Assembly (NCBI RefSeq): GCF_000018425.1
Contig: NC_010424.1
Coordinates: 372,001-436,000 of the forward strand
Direction of reading: 5' to 3'
From: Candidatus Desulforudis audaxviator MP104C
GTDB lineage: Bacteria; Bacillota; Desulfotomaculia; Desulfotomaculales; Desulforudaceae
Length of the DNA: 64,000 nucleotides
The notes under the pieces were generated by a model that searched no databases, was not told the DNA's origin, and saw only the letters and a program-made list of their open reading frames with translations. A program made the position numbers and the translations under genes. This document shows, one piece after another, positions 15,846-51,597 of this stretch. The first letter of the stretch is position 1. The number at the start of each line of letters is the position of its first letter.

Positions 15846-15929
15846 ACGCGGACCAACGAACCGATTGACGGACAACTGGTGGACAGACGGACAGCCGGCG
15901 GACAACAGGCGGGCAATTGAATAAAAACC

Positions 15930-16100
15930 AGCGCCAGAACCCCCGTGCCGCGTTTGCGGTGTGTGCAGTGCGGGGGTTGACGAGGGGGAGGTTCATCGAA
16001 GGATTCGGCGGATGCCTCCCGGCTTGGGGTCACGGCCGAGAACGGCGCCACAAAACCGCGGGGTGACCCGCGGGACAAAAGCGCCCGGTGACCTGAAAGG
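15930..16100 (+). ncRNA. glmS ribozyme (glucosamine-6-phosphate-responsive, self-cleaving leader)
   Basis: The leader matches the glmS ribozyme block by block: the A-GCGCC cleavage region at 15930-15935, then GGTTGACGAGGGGGAGG, TTCATCGAAGGATTCGGCGG, ATGCCTCCCGGC, the GCGCC-complement AACGGCGCC, and the terminal GGGGTGACCCGCGGGACAAAA and CGGTGACC segments. By homology cleavage falls between A15930 and G15931, triggered by glucosamine-6-phosphate and lowering glmS mRNA. About 140 bases separate it from the glmS start. Confidence 0.93.
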
Positions 16101-44007: not shown

Positions 44008-44628
44008 CTACTCTTCCTCTTTGTTCTTATCATTGCCCGCTCGGGACGGCTTACCCTGGCCGGCCCAGTCCGGCTTGCCTTGACCGGCCCGATCCGGCTT
44101 ACTCCGGTCCGCCCAGGCTGGCTTGTTCCGATCGGCGAGCCGCACTTGATTACGCTCGGCATCAAAATCCACCGTGAGCCCGAAAACCTCGGCGATAAAA
44201 CGCAGGGGCAGCACGATCCGTCCGTTGATGCTCTTGGGCGGCACGTCCGGGCCGTCGATCTTGACGTCGTTAAAGTAGAAGGCCGGCATGCCGTTTTCGT
44301 CCAGAGCACCGAAATCGATCTCCAGAATGCTGTCGTTCAGTTCGATGGTCACCATCTTGTCTTCCGCGTTCCAATCCACCTTGGCCCCCAGAGCGGCCAT
44401 CATGCCCCGAATGGGGATCAGCACGCGACCCTCCTTGATCACCGGGGGTACGTCACCCCAGGGTCTCTCCTCACCGTCCACCGTCAGTCCCAACGCTTTG
44501 TCTTTTCCGGGCTTCCCGTCTTCCTCCCTGATCTTTGCCGCTTCCGGGCCGGGAGGCGCCGCCCCGGCGCTCACCGTCAGCGAGAGGACAAACAACACCG
44601 CCAAGACCGCCACCGCAAACCGTTTCAC
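44008..44628 (-). CDS. Secreted protein with copper amine oxidase N-terminal (stalk) domain
   Basis: 206 residues. The signal peptide KRFAVAVLAVLFVLSL ends near SAGAA. The body holds the two repeats of the 'Cu amine oxidase N-terminal' fold, VIKEGRVLIPIRGMMAALGA and INGRIVLPLRFIAEVFGL, common in clostridial cell-surface proteins and not catalytic. The C-terminal tail is a run of short repeats around (K/G)PxWAxQGKP, ending in Lys/Glu. It may be a wall- or membrane-associated protein; its target is unknown. Confidence 0.8.
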   Translation of the reverse strand: MKRFAVAVLAVLFVLSLTVSAGAAPPGPEAAKIREEDGKPGKDKALGLTVDGEERPWGDVPPVIKEGRVLIPIRGMMAALGAKVDWNAEDKMVTIELNDSILEIDFGALDENGMPAFYFNDVKIDGPDVPPKSINGRIVLPLRFIAEVFGLTVDFDAERNQVRLADRNKPAWADRSKPDRAGQGKPDWAGQGKPSRAGNDKNKEEE

Positions 44629-44761
44629 CTTGCTGTCAGCCTCCTTAATTTGGTCTTTGCCATGGTATTCGTCACCGGCTTCCGGTTTGGGGGGTAGCGG
44701 CGCTACATCCGGTTGAAAAACCCCTTCACTGCACCTCGGCGGCGATGCGCCCCTCCTTACA

Positions 44762-45073
44762 TTAGGAAACCATCTGGTACGAAAGATCCTCCAAGTTACC
44801 CCCCAGGTTTTCGCTTAAGCCCCCGACCTGACGGGCCAGATCCTGTACCGCCTTCTCCGTTCTTTTCTGCGCCCGGGCCAGGTCTTTCTGCGCCTCGGCT
44901 AGTTGCTCCACCCTCTTCTCGGTGCGCGCCTGCGCCTGCGCCACTTCTGCAACAATCATCTTGAGTTCCGAGAAGTCCTCCTTGGTCGGGTATCTGCCGT
45001 GGAGACACGCCTCCACGATTTCTCGAACCGCAAGCCGCTGCTCCGTGGTGAGAACATCCTCCGGCACGCCCAT
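44762..45073 (-). pseudogene. Truncated coiled-coil (DUF3782-like) protein
   Basis: 103 residues. A helical start (LTTEQRLAVREIVEACLHG) leads into coiled-coil heptads RTEKRVEQLAEAQKDLARAQ and ends at GLSENLGGNLEDLSYQMVS. In family members I know, this region is followed by a PD-(D/E)XK-like nuclease domain, which is missing here. It is either a remnant or a standalone coiled coil. Confidence 0.55.
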
Positions 45074-45120
45074 TGATCAGGTAGTGTACATTTTTAGTAG
45101 GTAACCGAGGGTCATGAGGG

Positions 45121-45326
45121 TTTACAGACCGGCGGAGCAGGGTTTATAATTGCGCTATCCGGCGGCTGAAGCCGCCGAAGACCATTCGGCTTCGATTCCG
45201 GAACGTGCCACGAAGGCATGAGCCCGGCCGAAGACCCAGGCCGAGGCCCAGCGGTTTTGTTTTCAAAAGACATCTAAAACAGAGTGGAAAAAAGAAGGCC
45301 ACGGAGGTGCTTCCTCCGTGGCTTTT
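45121..45326 (+). promoter_or_regulatory. Promoter and structured leader with terminator before the ABC transporter operon
   Basis: TTTACA (45121-45126) and TATAAT (45145-45150) are separated by 18 bases. The predicted transcript opens with CGGCGGC-TGAA-GCCGCCG (45160-45177), then GTGCC/GGCAT-type short stems and GGCCGA repeats. It then reaches GCCACGGAGG-TGCTT-CCTCCGTGGC-TTTT (45298-45326), a 10-bp terminator hairpin 35 bases before the first permease start. The layout is that of an attenuator or riboswitch. I cannot match it to a known class. Confidence 0.55.
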
Positions 45327-45360
45327 CCCATTCTTTTGCTCTCTCAAGGATCGGTGATCG

Positions 45361-46299
45361 ATGAAGAGTTATCTCTTTAGGCGCATTTTGTACCTGCTTC
45401 CCGTAATGCTTGGAGTGTCCATCATTACTTTCGCGTTGATCAATCTTGCGCCGGGGGACCCGGCCGAGATAATCCTGAGGGCCGACGGGATGGAGCCTAC
45501 CGCGGAGGCGGTGGCGGTTCTGCGGGAGGAGCTGGGCTTGAACGATCCGCTTTACATCCAGTATGGGCGCTGGCTGTGGGGTGTGCTCCACCTGGACCTG
45601 GGCGAGTCGTTTCGCACGGGGCGTCCCGTGGCCGAAGAGTTGTTCTCACGTCTTCCGGCCACTCTGGAACTGACATGCGCGGCTCTGGTATTCATGGTGA
45701 TCCTTGCGGTACCGGCCGGCATCCTGTCCGCCCTCTACCGGCACACCCTGGTCGATCACCTGGGCCGTCTGGGTGCCCTTGCGGGGGCCTCGCTCCCCGG
45801 TTTTTGGCTGGGGCTCGTGCTCATCTACCTTTTTTCGGTGAAGCTCGGAATCTTGCCGGTGATGGGGCGGGGAGGACTTGAACACCTGGTGCTGCCCGCT
45901 GTTACCCTGGGCTTCGGGATGGCTGCCGTTTACGCCCGGGTCCTGCGGACCGGAATGCTGGATGTGCTGGGTCAGGACTACATCAAGGTCGCCCGGGCCA
46001 AGGGGTTGAAGGAAAAGTGGGTGATCGGGCGCCACGCCTTGAAGAACGCCCTTTTGCCCGCGGTGACGTTACTGGGCATGAGCTTCGGGCACCTTTTGGG
46101 GGGAGCGGTAATTGTGGAAACCATCTTTGCCTGGCCGGGCGTGGGAAAGTTTGCCGTGGAGTCCATCTTCAACCGGGACTACCCGGTGATCCAGGGATAC
46201 GCCCTTTTCATGGCCGTGGTCTTTGTGCTGGCCAACCTTCTGGTGGACATATCCTACGTTTTCCTTGACCCGCGCATCCGCCTGGAAAGGGGGGAGTAG
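45361..46299 (+). CDS. nikB: Nickel/peptide ABC transporter permease (NikB/DppB type)
   Basis: 312 residues, six membrane segments. The N-terminus is typical of DppB/NikB (RRILYLLPVMLGVSIITFAL, then LAPGDPAEI), and the EAA loop is DYIKVARAKGLKEKWVIGRH followed by ALKNALLP. First gene of a six-gene transporter operon. The substrate could be nickel (free or chelated) or oligopeptide; sequence alone does not decide. The terminator-bearing leader directly upstream suggests ligand control. Confidence 0.88.
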   Translation: MKSYLFRRILYLLPVMLGVSIITFALINLAPGDPAEIILRADGMEPTAEAVAVLREELGLNDPLYIQYGRWLWGVLHLDLGESFRTGRPVAEELFSRLPATLELTCAALVFMVILAVPAGILSALYRHTLVDHLGRLGALAGASLPGFWLGLVLIYLFSVKLGILPVMGRGGLEHLVLPAVTLGFGMAAVYARVLRTGMLDVLGQDYIKVARAKGLKEKWVIGRHALKNALLPAVTLLGMSFGHLLGGAVIVETIFAWPGVGKFAVESIFNRDYPVIQGYALFMAVVFVLANLLVDISYVFLDPRIRLERGE

Positions 46300-46302
46300 C
46301 CG

Positions 46303-47232
46303 GTGAGCATCTCGAAAAACTTCGGCGCTGGGGTTGCCGGTTACTCTGCCGCCGGGAAACCGGCGGGCCGGGCAAGGGCCGGACCGCGCGGGCTGCCGGG
46401 TGAGGCGCTGGCAAGACTCTGGCAGGATAAACTGGCTCTTTTGGGGCTGGTGATCATCCTGGCCGTGGTGGCCGTGGCGGTCTTTGCGCCCTATATTGCG
46501 CCCAACGACCCCGTAAAGGTGGATCTGGCGCAGCGTCTTGCACCGCCCGGCGCGCAGTACCCCCTGGGCACCGACCACCTGGGGCGCTGCCTTTTGTCGC
46601 GGTTGATCTATGGCACGAGGGTGTCCCTGGCCACGGCGGCTTTGGCCCTGACGGCAATCATGCTCATCAGCATTCCCCTGGGCACCCTGGCGGGCTACTG
46701 CGGGGGGCGGGTGGACAACGCCGTCATGCGGGTAGTTGACGTGTTGCTGGCCTTCCCGGGCCTGGTGCTGGCTCTGGTCATTGCCGGGATGCTGGGGCCG
46801 GGGCTTTTAAACGTGATGCTGGCCCTGGCCGCCGTCTGGTGGGTGGGGTACGCCCGGGTCATCCGGGGGATGGTTCTTTCGGTGAAAGAGAAGGAATTCG
46901 TCTTGGCGGCCCGGGCCTGCGGCACTCGTGAGTTGGGCATCATCACCCGGCACATCCTGCCCAACGTACTCTCCCCGGTGATCGTCCTGGCCACGCTGGA
47001 TATGGGCAAGCTGATCCTGGCCATCTCCGGGCTTTCCTTCCTGGGCCTCGGCGCCCAGCCGCCCACGCCGGAGTGGGGGGCCATGCTGAACGACGGCCGC
47101 CCTTACATGCAGGTGGCGCCGCAGCTCATGGTCTACCCGGGTCTTTGCATCATGACGGTGGTGCTGGCCTTCAACCTGCTGGGCGACGGCTTAAGGGACG
47201 CCCTGGACCCGCGGGGGATTACCAGGTTTTAA
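46303..47232 (+). CDS. nikC: Nickel/peptide ABC transporter permease (NikC/DppC type)
   Basis: 309 residues from a GTG three bases after the nikB stop. PLGTDHLGRCLLSRLIYGTR and GYCGGRVDNAVMRVVDVLLA are family hallmarks, with the EAA loop EFVLAARACGTRELGIITRH and LPNVLSPVIV. It pairs with the preceding permease to form the membrane pore. Confidence 0.9.
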   Translation: MSISKNFGAGVAGYSAAGKPAGRARAGPRGLPGEALARLWQDKLALLGLVIILAVVAVAVFAPYIAPNDPVKVDLAQRLAPPGAQYPLGTDHLGRCLLSRLIYGTRVSLATAALALTAIMLISIPLGTLAGYCGGRVDNAVMRVVDVLLAFPGLVLALVIAGMLGPGLLNVMLALAAVWWVGYARVIRGMVLSVKEKEFVLAARACGTRELGIITRHILPNVLSPVIVLATLDMGKLILAISGLSFLGLGAQPPTPEWGAMLNDGRPYMQVAPQLMVYPGLCIMTVVLAFNLLGDGLRDALDPRGITRF

Positions 47233-47251
47233 AAAATAGGGGGAGAACCGG

Positions 47252-48226
47252 ATGTCCCTTGTTCCTGTTTTAAAGGTGAATAATTTATCCACTCACTTTC
47301 ATACCCGGCACGGTGTCATCAAGGCCGCAGACAGAGTTAGCTTCACGGTGGCGGCCGGGAAAACCCTGGGCCTGGTGGGGGAGAGCGGCTGCGGCAAGAG
47401 CGTTACGGCCCTGTCCATCCTGCGCCTGATTGAGCCGCCGGGAAGAATTCTCTCCGGGGAAGTCTGGTTAAACGGCTGCAACCTGCTCAAGCTTCCCCCA
47501 GGGCAGTTGCGGCAGGTGCGGGGCAGGGAAATAGCGCTGGTTTTCCAGGACCCGCTGACCTCCCTGAACCCGGTTTTAACCATCGGCACGCAGCTTGCGG
47601 AAACCATTGTCTCCCATGAAGAGGTATCCCGGGCGGAAGCGCGGCGGCGGGTGGCGGAGCTTCTTTTGCGCGTGGGCCTGCCCGACCCGGAAAGGCTCAT
47701 GCGCCTGTATCCTTTTCAGCTTTCCGGGGGCATGCGCCAGCGGGTGATGATGGCCATGGCGCTCTCGCTGCGCCCGAAAGTTTTGATTGCCGATGAGCCC
47801 ACCACCGCCCTGGACGTTACCGTCCAGGCCCAGATCCTGGCGGAGCTGAAGCGGCTGCAGGAAGAGCTGGGGATGGCGATCATCCTCATCACCCACGACC
47901 TGGGGGTGGTCGCGGCCATGGCCGACGAAGTGGCGGTGATGTACGCCGGATCGATTGTGGAGCGCGGCCCGGTGGCGCAAGTATTTGACCGTCCCGCCCA
48001 CCCCTACACCCGGGCTTTGCTCCGTTCCGTGCCGCGCCTGGGCAGGGAAGAACTGGTGCCGGTGGTGGGACAGCCGCCGTTGCTTCTAAATCTCCCGGCC
48101 CATTGCGCCTTCCTCCCCCGCTGCCCGCAGGCGGGCGCGGCGTGCTGGGGGGAGAAGCCAGAATTGCGGGAGATCGGGCCGGGCCACGCGGCAGCCTGCC
48201 ACCGTTTATTCCCCCGGGCCAGCTGA
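47252..48226 (+). CDS. nikD: ABC transporter ATP-binding protein (NikD/DppD type)
   Basis: 324 residues: Walker [11 protein letters not shown]-loop [14 protein letters not shown], signature [12 protein letters not shown], Walker [16 protein letters not shown] and H-loop THDLG. The C-terminal oligopeptide/dipeptide extension carries a Cys-rich [15 protein letters not shown] motif, which in relatives binds an iron-sulfur cluster. GGGGGAG precedes the ATG. Confidence 0.92.
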
Positions 48227-48242
48227 GAGAGGAGGGATGCGG

Positions 48243-49202
48243 GTGAGCCTCCTGGAGGTAAGGGATCTGGTTAAGCACTACCCGGGGAAAGGAGGGATTC
48301 TGGCTGGCCGCCGGGAAAAGGTGCGGGCGGTGGACGGCGTATCTTTCTCCTTGGCCCGGGGAGAGACCCTTGGCCTGGTGGGGGAGAGCGGCTGCGGCAA
48401 GAGCACCCTGGGGCGGCTGGTGGTACGGCTCGAAGAACCAACGGCCGGAAAAATCCTTTTTGCCGGCGAGGAGACCACCGGCCGGACGGAGGGAAAGCTG
48501 CGGGAACTGCGCCGCCACTTCCAGATCATCTTCCAGGACTCTTCTTCCTCTCTCAATCCGCGCCGCACGGTGGGAGCGACCATAGAGGAACCCCTGGCCA
48601 ATTTCGGCGTGGCGAAAGAAGAGCGCCGGGAGCGGGTGGCTGAACTATTAACGCTTGTCGGCCTGGAATCGGAGCACGCCTCGCATTACCCGCACGAATT
48701 CAGCGGGGGGCAGCGCCAGCGCATAAACATCGCCCGGGCCCTGGCCCTGCAGCCGGAACTGGTGGTCTGCGACGAGCCGGTTTCCAGCCTGGACGTCTCC
48801 ATCCGGGCGCAAGTTCTAAACCTTTTGCGGGAACTGAAAAGGCGGCTCAATCTTTCGTACCTCTTTATCTCGCATGACCTGGCCGCGGTGAATTATCTTG
48901 CCGACCGGGTGGCGGTGATGTACCTGGGCAAAATCGTGGAGATTCTGCCGGCAGAAGGCCTCGTATCACAGGCCCGCCACCCCTACACCCGGGCGCTCCT
49001 GCGGGCGGTGCCGGAGCCCGACCCGCGGCAAAAAACCGGCCAAAAACCGGTGGTGCGGGGCGAGCCGCCCGACCCGGGAAGGCCTCCTGCAGGCTGCCGC
49101 TTTCACCCCCGCTGCCCCGAGGCCCGCGACCTTTGCCGGCAGGAGGAGCCTGCTTTAAAGGAGGTGAGAGAGGCGCATTTGGTGGCGTGTCATTTAATTT
49201 GA
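48243..49202 (+). CDS. nikE: ABC transporter ATP-binding protein (NikE/DppF type)
   Basis: 319 residues: Walker [10 protein letters not shown], signature [12 protein letters not shown], Walker [16 protein letters not shown], and a C-terminal [14 protein letters not shown] motif as in NikD. GTG 48243 is seven bases after AGGAGG and is preferred; ATG 48237 is only one base from it. The spacing to nikD is 16 bases. It forms the second nucleotide-binding subunit. Confidence 0.92.
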
Positions 49203-49236
49203 CGGAAAGATTAGGGGAAAGTGAGGGGGGTCAATA

Positions 49237-49986
49237 ATGCATGGGAAAAAAGATATATTGCTCCTTGCTACTTACGGAATGGAAATAGTGGAGTGCGGCG
49301 GAACCCTGGCCAAACAAGTGAAAGCTGGTGGAAGCGTTCAGGCAGCAGTTTCCCTGGTAAGACCCGAGAACAGGGAGCAGGTCGAGAAGGCGGCCGGGGT
49401 ACTGGGTGTTAAGGTAAGCTTTCTGGATTTCAAGAGCGGGGAAGTGCAGGCTGATGTAGCCTCAAAAAGTAAAATCGTGCGCCTGATCAGGGAAATTCGC
49501 CCGGAGATTATTATTACCCAGGATCCAGAGCATTCCTTTCTCGATCTTGACCCTGATCGCCGGGAAGCAATGGTGCTTTACCTCGAGGCTATTAGCCTGG
49601 CCGCAAGAGATTGGAAAGTTGAGGAATGCGGTAACTTGAAGCCACACCTGGTAAAAAGTATCTATTTCATGACCCCGGAACGGCCGAACTGCGTTATTGA
49701 TATTGCTGAAGTTTTTCGCCTCAAGGAGCAAGCTATGGCTGAACTAACCGGTCAGCTGGCCTTTACCGCGGAGATGCTGGGTAAAATGGTATCGGCGGCC
49801 GCCATGCGCTGTCTGCTGACAGATTACGAACAGATTAAGGACGTACCAGTAGAGCTTGGCCGGGCCCTACACCGGGAGATGAATAGAGCTTTTCATCTTT
49901 ACCACGGTCTTTTGAGCCATTCCAGCTTTGTACTTGCCGAGCCTTTCCGTCGCCTGGGTCGGTTCGAGTTGGAATACCTATTATAA
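49237..49986 (+). CDS. PIG-L/LmbE-like protein with altered metal motif
   Basis: 249 residues. The fold is suggested by the start KKDILLLATYGMEIVECGGT and LAKQVKAGGSVQAAVSLV, which aligns with the LmbE block 'PHPDDE-x-GCGGTLA'. Here HPDDE is replaced by TYGME, so the usual zinc His and Asp are missing. IRPEIIITQDPEH and DPDRREAMVLYLEAI correspond to the next motifs. The gene is inside the transporter operon between the ATPases and the binding protein, with GAGGGGGG before the ATG. It may be a non-hydrolytic or altered-specificity relative that handles the transported ligand. Confidence 0.7.
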   Translation: MHGKKDILLLATYGMEIVECGGTLAKQVKAGGSVQAAVSLVRPENREQVEKAAGVLGVKVSFLDFKSGEVQADVASKSKIVRLIREIRPEIIITQDPEHSFLDLDPDRREAMVLYLEAISLAARDWKVEECGNLKPHLVKSIYFMTPERPNCVIDIAEVFRLKEQAMAELTGQLAFTAEMLGKMVSAAAMRCLLTDYEQIKDVPVELGRALHREMNRAFHLYHGLLSHSSFVLAEPFRRLGRFELEYLL

Positions 49987-50028
49987 AATGTAAAACAGTG
50001 CTAAAAACATGTTGGGGGTGTAAATAAA

Positions 50029-51597
50029 GTGAGGCATATAAAGCAAAGTATATCTATCCTGTTGATTATTATGTTGATTGCCGGGTTAGCCGGGTGTGGT
50101 GAGCAACAAAAAGAAGTACAGGAAGCCAGGCAAGAGCTTGTGGTCGGGTTGGCGGCCGACGCCAATGAACTCAAGTTCAAAGAAGTGGGTATCGGGTCGC
50201 CGAATGCCAATATCTACGAAAGTCTCGTCAAGCTGGACGCCGACTACCAGGTTCAACCGCTCTTAGCCACCAGGTGGGAGTACAGAGGCGACAACACCTG
50301 GAGGTTTTACCTAAGGGAAGGCGTCAAGTTTCATAACGGAGAAGAGTTGACGGCGGAGGCGGTCAAGCGGTCCCTGGAAGAGGAAATACGTCCCAGCGGT
50401 AGGGCCGTCCTGAAAATCGAGAAGGGCTCCGTCAAGGTTGTCGATAAATATACGGTCGATATCGTCACCACAGAGCCCAACATGCGCGTCCCGGAGATCC
50501 TGGCGCATCCCCTCAACGGAATCCGAGCGCCGGGTGTCGATCCTGTTGCCAATCCGACCGGCACAGGCCCGTTCCGTTTCGTCCGCTACGAAAAAGATAA
50601 AGAACTCGTCGTGGAGCGCAATCCCGACTACTGGGGTACACCGCCCAAGCTGGATAAGGTGACTTTTAAATACATTCCCGATCACAACACGCGCCTGATG
50701 GCCCTTCAAGCCGGAGAAATAGACGTGGCGAGGGAGATCCCCCGCGAAATGCTCGGGCAGGTCAAGGCGATGGACGGTGTCAGATTGGCAACCGCGCCGC
50801 AGGGCCCGTATGTGGCACTGTCCCTCATGGTCAACGGGAAACCGCCGCACGACATTTTGCGGGATAAGACAGTACGGCAGGCCATCGGGTGGGCTATCGA
50901 CCGCGAAGCCATTATTCAAAAGGTGTGGGAAGGCAACGCGGACGAGAGTCAAACGGTTATTCCCGCGGGGATTCTGGGAGAGCACAAAAACCTGGTACAA
51001 GGATTTGGCTATGACCCGGCAAAAGCCGGACAGCTGCTTGATGACGCCGGCTGGAAGCCCGGGCCCGACGGTATCAGGACCAAAAACGGCAGGCGGCTTG
51101 AGCTTACGCTGGTTTCCGGTTTTCCTTCGGCCAGCGTGTTGAAACCTTTGCCCGAAGTCCTGCAGCAGCAGCTTCGTGACGTCGGCATTGATGTCCGTAT
51201 TGTGGAGGTGGCTGATGACGGCCTGTACTACGGCAGGCTGGAAAAGGGTGAAGGCGACCTCTGGTTGGAGCGGGGGAATCAGAATAACGGCGACCCGACC
51301 TTCCTTCCGGAACTCCTATACCACAGCCGGGGATACCAGGGGTCTACTTACAACAAGCCGTTCTGGCCGGGGGAAGAGTTCGACCGCCTTATTGACGAGG
51401 CCAGGAACACCCCGGATATCCGCGAGGCCACCCGGCTTGTGGCGGAGGCTATGCACATTCTGATTGATAAGGAAAGCACCGTCGTGCCTATTGCCGCCCT
51501 TTACAATGTCTATGCCGTAAAAGAAAAGGTCCAGGGACTCAGCCCTCATCCCGCGCCTATCCACACCAGATGGGATACCGCTTACATCAAAGGATAG
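50029..51597 (+). CDS. nikA: Nickel/peptide ABC transporter substrate-binding lipoprotein
   Basis: 522 residues. The lipoprotein signal (ILLIIMLIAGLAGCGEQQ) has its lipobox Cys near residue 24. SBP_bac_5 family blocks YRGDNTWRFYLREGVKFHNG, NPTGTGPFRFVRYEKDKEL and YIPDHNTRLMALQAGEIDV are clear. GGGGGTG precedes the GTG start. It completes the transporter. Whether it binds nickel, a metal chelate or a peptide is undecided. Confidence 0.9.
   Translation: MRHIKQSISILLIIMLIAGLAGCGEQQKEVQEARQELVVGLAADANELKFKEVGIGSPNANIYESLVKLDADYQVQPLLATRWEYRGDNTWRFYLREGVKFHNGEELTAEAVKRSLEEEIRPSGRAVLKIEKGSVKVVDKYTVDIVTTEPNMRVPEILAHPLNGIRAPGVDPVANPTGTGPFRFVRYEKDKELVVERNPDYWGTPPKLDKVTFKYIPDHNTRLMALQAGEIDVAREIPREMLGQVKAMDGVRLATAPQGPYVALSLMVNGKPPHDILRDKTVRQAIGWAIDREAIIQKVWEGNADESQTVIPAGILGEHKNLVQGFGYDPAKAGQLLDDAGWKPGPDGIRTKNGRRLELTLVSGFPSASVLKPLPEVLQQQLRDVGIDVRIVEVADDGLYYGRLEKGEGDLWLERGNQNNGDPTFLPELLYHSRGYQGSTYNKPFWPGEEFDRLIDEARNTPDIREATRLVAEAMHILIDKESTVVPIAALYNVYAVKEKVQGLSPHPAPIHTRWDTAYIKG

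Follow-up and report, generated by a model that had tools for sequence, protein, structure and literature searches.

A predicted attenuator leader before a nickel-type transporter operon of Candidatus Desulforudis audaxviator, one copy of an uncatalogued RNA family

The transporter operon and its leader

The window, that is, the whole stretch of 64,000 nucleotides that was analysed, comes from the genome of Candidatus Desulforudis audaxviator, which consists of one contig of 2,349,476 bases. It carries a nickel-type ABC transporter operon, which is preceded by a structured leader spanning 45121-45335; the features of the locus are as follows.

45121..45150, + strand: sigma-70-type promoter by motif match, with the -35 box TTTACA at 45121-45126 and the -10 box TATAAT at 45145-45150
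45160..45177, + strand: hairpin H1, CGGCGGC-TGAA-GCCGCCG, 7-bp stem of seven G-C pairs with a YGRA-type loop, -13.6 kcal/mol
45204..45220, + strand: hairpin H2, CGTGCC-ACGAA-GGCATG, with an AYGRA loop, the proposed antiterminator hairpin
45222..45247, + strand: inner hairpin GCCCGGCC/GGCCGAGGC, which caps the first terminator in the family
45248..45263, + strand: decayed 3' arm of the first terminator and its T-run TTTTGTTTT, from the alignment with the copies of a relative, genome G005
45294..45326, + strand: second, intact intrinsic terminator, 14 pairs, -24.8 kcal/mol
45361..46299, + strand: first gene, encoding a NikB/Opp2B-type permease of a nickel ABC transporter, which scores 449.9 bits against a cut-off of 350
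46303..51597, + strand: rest of the operon, namely a NikC-type permease, two ATPases, a PIG-L/BshB-like deacetylase and a NikA-related family 5 binding protein

The initial annotation had placed before the transporter operon a promoter, a GC-perfect tetraloop hairpin, several nested short stems and a 10-bp terminator hairpin ending 35 bases before the first gene, and each of these parts was recovered. The arrangement TTTACA-18-TATAAT matches the promoter consensus at 11 of 12 positions, with one such match in 44600-45500 against a shuffle mean of 0.3, and similar boxes were read 5' of the element match in several relatives. The tetraloop hairpin is H1; the terminator hairpin has 14 pairs, of which a 10-pair core is formed by GCCACGGAGG/CCTCCGTGGC, and ends 35 nt 5' of the ATG at 45361; and the nested stem that matters is H2, whose bases double as the 5' arm of the family's terminator. 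As a whole, 45151-45335 folds at -82.1 kcal/mol, a stability that none of 200 dinucleotide shuffles reached (z -5.7).

As judged by alignment, the window copy has a decayed first terminator and an intact second one. The family's first terminator would be expected at approximately 45206-45263; its T-run is present at 45255-45263, the window has CCAGCGG where relatives carry CCTTCGTGG as the 3' arm, and none of the nine arm pairs forms in the predicted fold. The 5' arm of the second terminator contains a weak H2-like copy (GCC-ACGGA-GGT, 45298-45308, -1.1 kcal/mol), and the H2 arm of the window is also able to pair with the 3' arm of this second terminator.

The leader had been annotated as an unassigned attenuation leader without resemblance to the riboswitch consensuses compared by eye, and a search of Rfam 15 at the gathering score supports this view, as no family, the cobalamin riboswitch RF00174 included, is matched in the leader; when the threshold was relaxed to E<=10, the five matches obtained were sub-threshold and confined to the terminator hairpin. 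A leader peptide, judged by eye, was set aside as an alternative. Elsewhere in the window, the sole Rfam match is a glmS ribozyme at 15919-16097 (99.8 bits).

Within the operon, the family 5 binding protein is nearest to NikA models, with a score below their cut-offs. The deacetylase at 49237-49986 is PIG-L/BshB1-like, scores below the BshB1 cut-off and lies inside a nickel-type transporter operon; relatives of this enzyme adjoin transporter genes in many bacteria, and a search for its orthologues yielded 48 loci, mostly with different operon orders. A metallophore or thiol link of the deacetylase is possible.

Relatives of the leader and their two competing structures

A BLAST search with the leader returned a match at E<=1 in 121 of 150 relatives; among the matches listed, only two places, both in G005, exceeded 60 nt. 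The first lies upstream of the orthologous operon, where the structure is conserved; the conservation check and the Rfam check, which the initial annotation had named as possible refuters, thus leave its proposal standing, with the structure kept and covarying. The second is an orphan (L054:3690-3870) that has a promoter-like box and a terminator of its own and is followed by no gene on the same strand; by eye, the next gene there is a convergent nrdD. In both G005 copies, the H2 sequence CCACGRAGG pairs with CCTTCGTGG to make the terminator. On reading, the G005 operon leader has its first terminator intact and its second without a 5' arm, the reverse of the window. Beside this copy lies a divergent ORF (L053:7660-8400) that by eye resembles REP-associated (RAYT) transposases.

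Three covariance models were used. R1 was built from three copies, those of the window and the two of G005, and gave matches, many of them weak, in 56 of 150 relatives at E<=1; loci L057, L060, L090, L102 and L103, scanned with R1 only, contained no convincing copy. R2 was rebuilt from 33 rows and R3 from 91 rows, the former being used in the tests of top CbiM loci and recA loci and the latter in the test of lower-scoring CbiM loci. With the two rebuilt models, 78 of 113 genomes of the order matched at E<=0.1, against about 11 expected by chance from E-values alone, and 112 of 398 sampled genomes of the phylum matched at E<=0.01, against about 4 on the same basis; these large searches apply stricter filters. 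Many matches were found in some genomes (20 in G030, 13 in G099, 12 each in G022, G018 and G057, and 10 each in G086 and G041), although some of these 10-20 matches represent the two strands of a single place. Among the members, the window copy is divergent: it reached only E 0.003 with R3 in its own genome though it was in the training set; an unfiltered R3 search over the window gave E 6e-6, with the H2 arm paired with the 3' arm of the second terminator across a 73-nt insert. Two elements in close tandem were observed at L150:4320-4652, L169:6593-6792 and L112:1407-1612, an arrangement comparable to the two-terminator layout of the window.

Alignment A4 comprises 33 rows from 31 chosen sources out of 40, leaving out L117, L121, L122, L126, L143, L144, L151, L004 and L054, which were weak, duplicates or apparently coding, and taking L147 in place of L105, which is the same place. 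Alignment A6 comprises 91 rows at E<=1e-4 from 68 sources, includes near-identical loci of related genomes and contains at least one match on the strand opposite a stronger one (L178:2764). A set of 113 hits was derived from 133 rows by removing duplicates and overlaps, and together with 25 further rows it gave 137 anchored hits, one unanchored hit being dropped.

From these alignments, the leader is a member of an uncatalogued multi-copy family of predicted RNA switches, in which a putative antiterminator hairpin overlaps a transcription terminator. Its anatomy consists of H1, often with a YGRA-type loop, and of H2, with an AYGRA loop, overlapping the 5' arm of the predicted intrinsic terminator. 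Rfam returned nothing on the element in 20 relative loci, in 20 of the 30 top CbiM loci or in 20 of 24 further loci, and no published description of it was found in the portion of the open-licence PMC literature that was accessible; the accessible portion of PMC2965389 contains neither the term Desulfotomaculum nor the term cobalt.

The terminator and the antiterminator are mutually exclusive at the family level, both being supported by covariation, with the first terminator of the window a decayed case. When H1 and the terminator were mapped onto the 91 sequences of A6, 91.3% of 1904 cells were paired, in comparison to 33-53% for slid versions, and double-change cells numbered 375, where shuffles gave a mean of 121; H1 by itself covaries, with 94.4% of its cells paired. 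Similarly, H2, which played no part in building A6, was paired in 88.9% of 449 cells (24-44% for slid versions), with 50 double-change cells against 24.2 in shuffles. On the same 5' arm that the terminator uses, H2 forms by pairing of CC to a GG five bases further along and of the flanks to each other. At its second flanking position, 35 rows have U-A, 24 have A-U, 7 have G-C and 20 have no standard pair, and the U-A form (GUACC/GGUAC, AUACC/GGUAU) cannot derive from pairing with the T-run. For 127 of the 137 hits, the predicted fold of a transcript that stops ahead of the 3' arm contains H2; for 126 of them, the predicted fold of the complete transcript contains the terminator, with a median gain of 11.7 kcal/mol, so that the default should be termination.

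The loop of H2 has A, G and A at positions 1, 3 and 5 in all 91 rows of A6, an invariance that is partly ascertainment, as the rows were found with models already containing the loop letters. Position 2 is C or T and position 4 is A or G, the changes occurring mostly jointly with the terminator partners; for instance, base 2 and its partner are C-G in 61 rows and U-A in 30. Position 5 is still A in the 13 rows whose terminator partner mismatches. Since pairing alone would permit more change in the loop, these letters suggest that the H2 loop is recognised by something.

Among the 137 hits, for which the shuffles used in pattern counts and fold tests preserve base composition only, the H2 core is CCACGAAGG or CCACGGAGG in 82, and a hairpin with an (N)HGNA loop, the H1 pattern, lies 5' of H2 in 90 against 2.8 expected. 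Where the best upstream hairpin with 6 bp or more is considered, its loop is (N)HGRA in 60 of 125 cases, as opposed to 23 of 1981 shuffled ones, and a different one in the remaining 65 of 125. This enrichment is partly circular, as the models contain H1; independently of the model, 27 of the 74 hits without H1 inside the match carry it in the 75-nt 5' flank, against 1.3 expected. The spacing from H1 to H2 in the pattern search is 4-87 nt, and the H1 loops, mostly of four or five bases, are YGRA or NYGRA where matched.

Genes behind the element

The main downstream ORFs of 115 hits were assigned by Pfam to SBP_bac_5 (16), CbiM (14), ZnuA (9), FmdE (8), DUF3842 (7), Fe-only hydrogenase, methyltransferase and oligo_HPY (5 each), CbiA-type proteins (4), and PDGLE and Peripla_BP_2 (3 each), a tally that is approximate, drawn from the top 25 of 90 families, with ORFs picked mechanically and close relatives counted separately. 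In its own genome, the element gave ten matches at E<=1, of which 417259 and 417288(-) both fall within the window leader. Eight places at E<=0.155 precede genes for DUF3842, ZnuA, a hydrogenase region, an FlpD-type protein, nikB (in the window), DUF4198, CobN and CbiM; at 178247 an ORF is followed by an Fe-only hydrogenase 755 nt behind, at 177992(-) an FlpD/NADH_4Fe-4S protein lies behind the element, and the CbiM copy reaches only E 0.155 but is directly upstream of CbiM.

A further 24 loci, obtained from 27 newly found places minus three seen before and picked for high score, comprise 22 from outside the order and two, L283 and L293, from the order itself. On reading, all 24 have the H2 core and the terminator arm, and the patterned H1 is absent from some. 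The genes behind them are, by eye, CbiM (L272, L282), NikA-type (L279, L288), ZnuA-type (L285, L289), CooC-like (L277), CobN-like (L283) and DUF3842 (L293); LarC, assigned as Ni_insertion by Pfam, lies behind the element at L292, and no metal gene is evident behind it at L271, L284 and L291. An ECF S component with the motif GQIP..PMH.PVL was seen behind the element at L295 (PF12822) and, by eye, at L270, L278, L286 and L294.

CbiM loci of the order provide a direct comparison. Among the 30 top loci, one per genome, 19 have a same-strand upstream element at E<=0.1, in one case separated from CbiM by DUF3842 and in another with E 0.098, and 11 have no upstream match at that threshold; once four R2 training loci are excluded, the element is found at 15 of 26. 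None of 30 recA loci has the element at E<=0.1, the only stray match being at 0.37. Likewise, none of 15 lower-scoring CbiM loci, hand-chosen from the same CbiM list, has the element at E<=1. The cobalamin riboswitch RF00174, which is also a CbiM leader RNA in the same genomes, differs in its placement, as it occurs at 11 of these 15 loci (one cut off), where the element is absent, and at none of the 20 top loci scanned with Rfam. The two groups of CbiM may represent a nickel-type and a cobalt-type. What counts against the nickel reading is that the targets include non-nickel genes, such as ZnuA, FmdE, Peripla_BP_2, FeoA-like, DUF3842 and others.

Proposed control, rival explanations and meaning

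Building on what the sequences contain, namely a family with two mutually exclusive covarying hairpins, a conserved loop and a consistent gene context, the leader is probably (about 0.6) a transcription attenuator that acts in cis within a nickel-centred metal regulon, and one copy of an undescribed family. Beyond the initial annotation, this reading adds the multi-copy family and identifies the small AYGRA-loop hairpin overlapping the terminator as the likely switching element. RNA polymerase would start behind 45121-45150 and make H1, then H2. If H2 is left unheld, its bases CCACGAAGG would be captured by the complementary arm emerging behind them, an intrinsic terminator would form and the transporter genes would stay untranscribed. 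When nickel is scarce, a factor would read the YGRA-type loops of H2 (and H1) and stabilise H2 as an antiterminator, resulting in read-through. In the window copy, the second terminator at 45294-45326 would do the stopping, since the first is without its 3' arm. The direction of control and nickel as the signal are suggested by gene context: uptake genes and nickel-free hydrogenases as targets imply that H2 is held when nickel is short. A loop-reading factor presumably exists and is more likely a protein. Counted against the attenuator reading are the broken first terminator of the window, the weakness of the H2-like hairpin in its second terminator and the G005 orphan copy with no same-strand gene behind it.

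Alternatively, the hairpins could form a riboswitch that binds a small ligand, such as a metal ion or complex, or a metabolite raised by nickel starvation, with no protein involved. A multi-copy cis element before functionally linked genes is in line with this, as are the H2 core recurring in 82 of 137 hits and an H1 that, where found, often has related loop letters. Guanidine-II (mini-ykkC), a riboswitch of two hairpins with ACGR-type loops, demonstrates that so small a motif can be an aptamer; it has those hairpins in common with the element and differs in that the H2 loop is five-base, has C/U at position 2 and overlaps a terminator, and that the element is without an Rfam match and precedes other genes. 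The NiCo (czcD) riboswitch (Rfam RF02683) is built as a four-way junction and serves export genes; it shares with the element the control of nickel- and cobalt-linked genes by leader RNA, yet no NiCo match was obtained on the element. A riboswitch is rendered rather unlikely by the few conserved positions, by the H1-H2 spacing of 4-87 nt, by the lack of any matching Rfam riboswitch family and by the expected sign of the response, as Ni2+ stabilising H2 would presumably switch uptake on with the metal. As direct binding of nickel to H2 would act on uptake in the opposite sense to that expected, the more likely agent is a ligand raised by starvation or an antiterminator acting in trans.

As one form of the attenuator reading, a nickel-starvation antitermination system of its own kind, in which YGRA-type-loop hairpins are read by a putative novel RNA-binding factor, is offered as a tentative and somewhat doubtful proposal; if true, such a system would replace NikR in this order, perhaps beyond. 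In other bacteria, NikR controls nickel transporters, nikABCDE among them; published comparative genomics detected it in less than half of the NikABCDE-bearing organisms and inferred NikR-independent regulation (PMC2667541). NikR has nickel transporter control in common with the proposed system and differs in being a DNA-binding protein, with a strong match in one of 113 genomes of the order: at E<=0.001, NikR_C is matched in 21 of these genomes, and 14 are above the Pfam cut-off, with one at 84.7 bits and the remaining 20 at 20-27 bits. The weak NikR_C match of the own genome is a TM1266-family protein (TIGR03959, 116.6 bits, cut-off 60.8), which could be the metal sensor of such a system. 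This protein of 84 aa is encoded at L350:13462-13713, about 7 kb from the elements at 177992 and 178247 and 12 kb from that at 172953. DUF3842, itself a target, is a candidate part of such a system. Of 112 element-positive genomes, 104 carry it, as do 77 of 286 element-negative ones (Fisher p 2e-35, ignoring phylogeny), a distribution that fits either a regulator or merely a shared regulon, and a comparison of DUF3842 with PDB sequences gave nothing, the best E being 0.41.

It is highly improbable that the element is an antitermination site bound by an ANTAR protein of these genomes, even though ANTAR genes are found in all 14 chosen carriers and the layout resembles theirs. In ANTAR sites, the second of two small hairpins precedes a terminator and competes with it; on the element H2 competes with the terminator and a patterned H1 is present in 90 of 137 hits. 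According to PMC3369931, the dual-hairpin antiterminators of EutV, NasR and AmiR have in common with it conserved loop letters and multi-copy regulons. However, ANTAR loops are hexanucleotides with A1 and G4 and the sites reported for D. acetoxidans serve nitrogen metabolism (PMC3369931), whereas the element has a five-base AYGRA loop with G at position 3 in H2, YGRA or NYGRA loops of four or five bases in matching H1, variable spacing and a metal-uptake regulon. A role for the ANTAR proteins is thus unlikely.

The slimmest chance is given to a reading without switching, in which the elements are plain intrinsic terminators, or a separate small RNA gene, with a stem shared by descent. The G005 orphan, which has both a promoter-like box and a terminator, would speak for it; against it stand the covariation of the competing hairpin H2, its conserved loop letters and the placement of the element before CbiM genes and not before recA or the second CbiM group. 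The stand-alone small RNA that the orphan had brought up was dropped, as its relatives lie before metal genes.

As a predicted attenuator, the family is a concrete candidate for NikR-independent nickel regulation. It would join nickel-type uptake, nickel cofactor assembly (LarC, CooC-like) and Fe-only hydrogenases in one regulon, and it suggests, by association, roles for DUF3842, FmdE-like, ECF S-component and methyltransferase genes. Moreover, it provides a hairpin loop from which a search for the reader can start.
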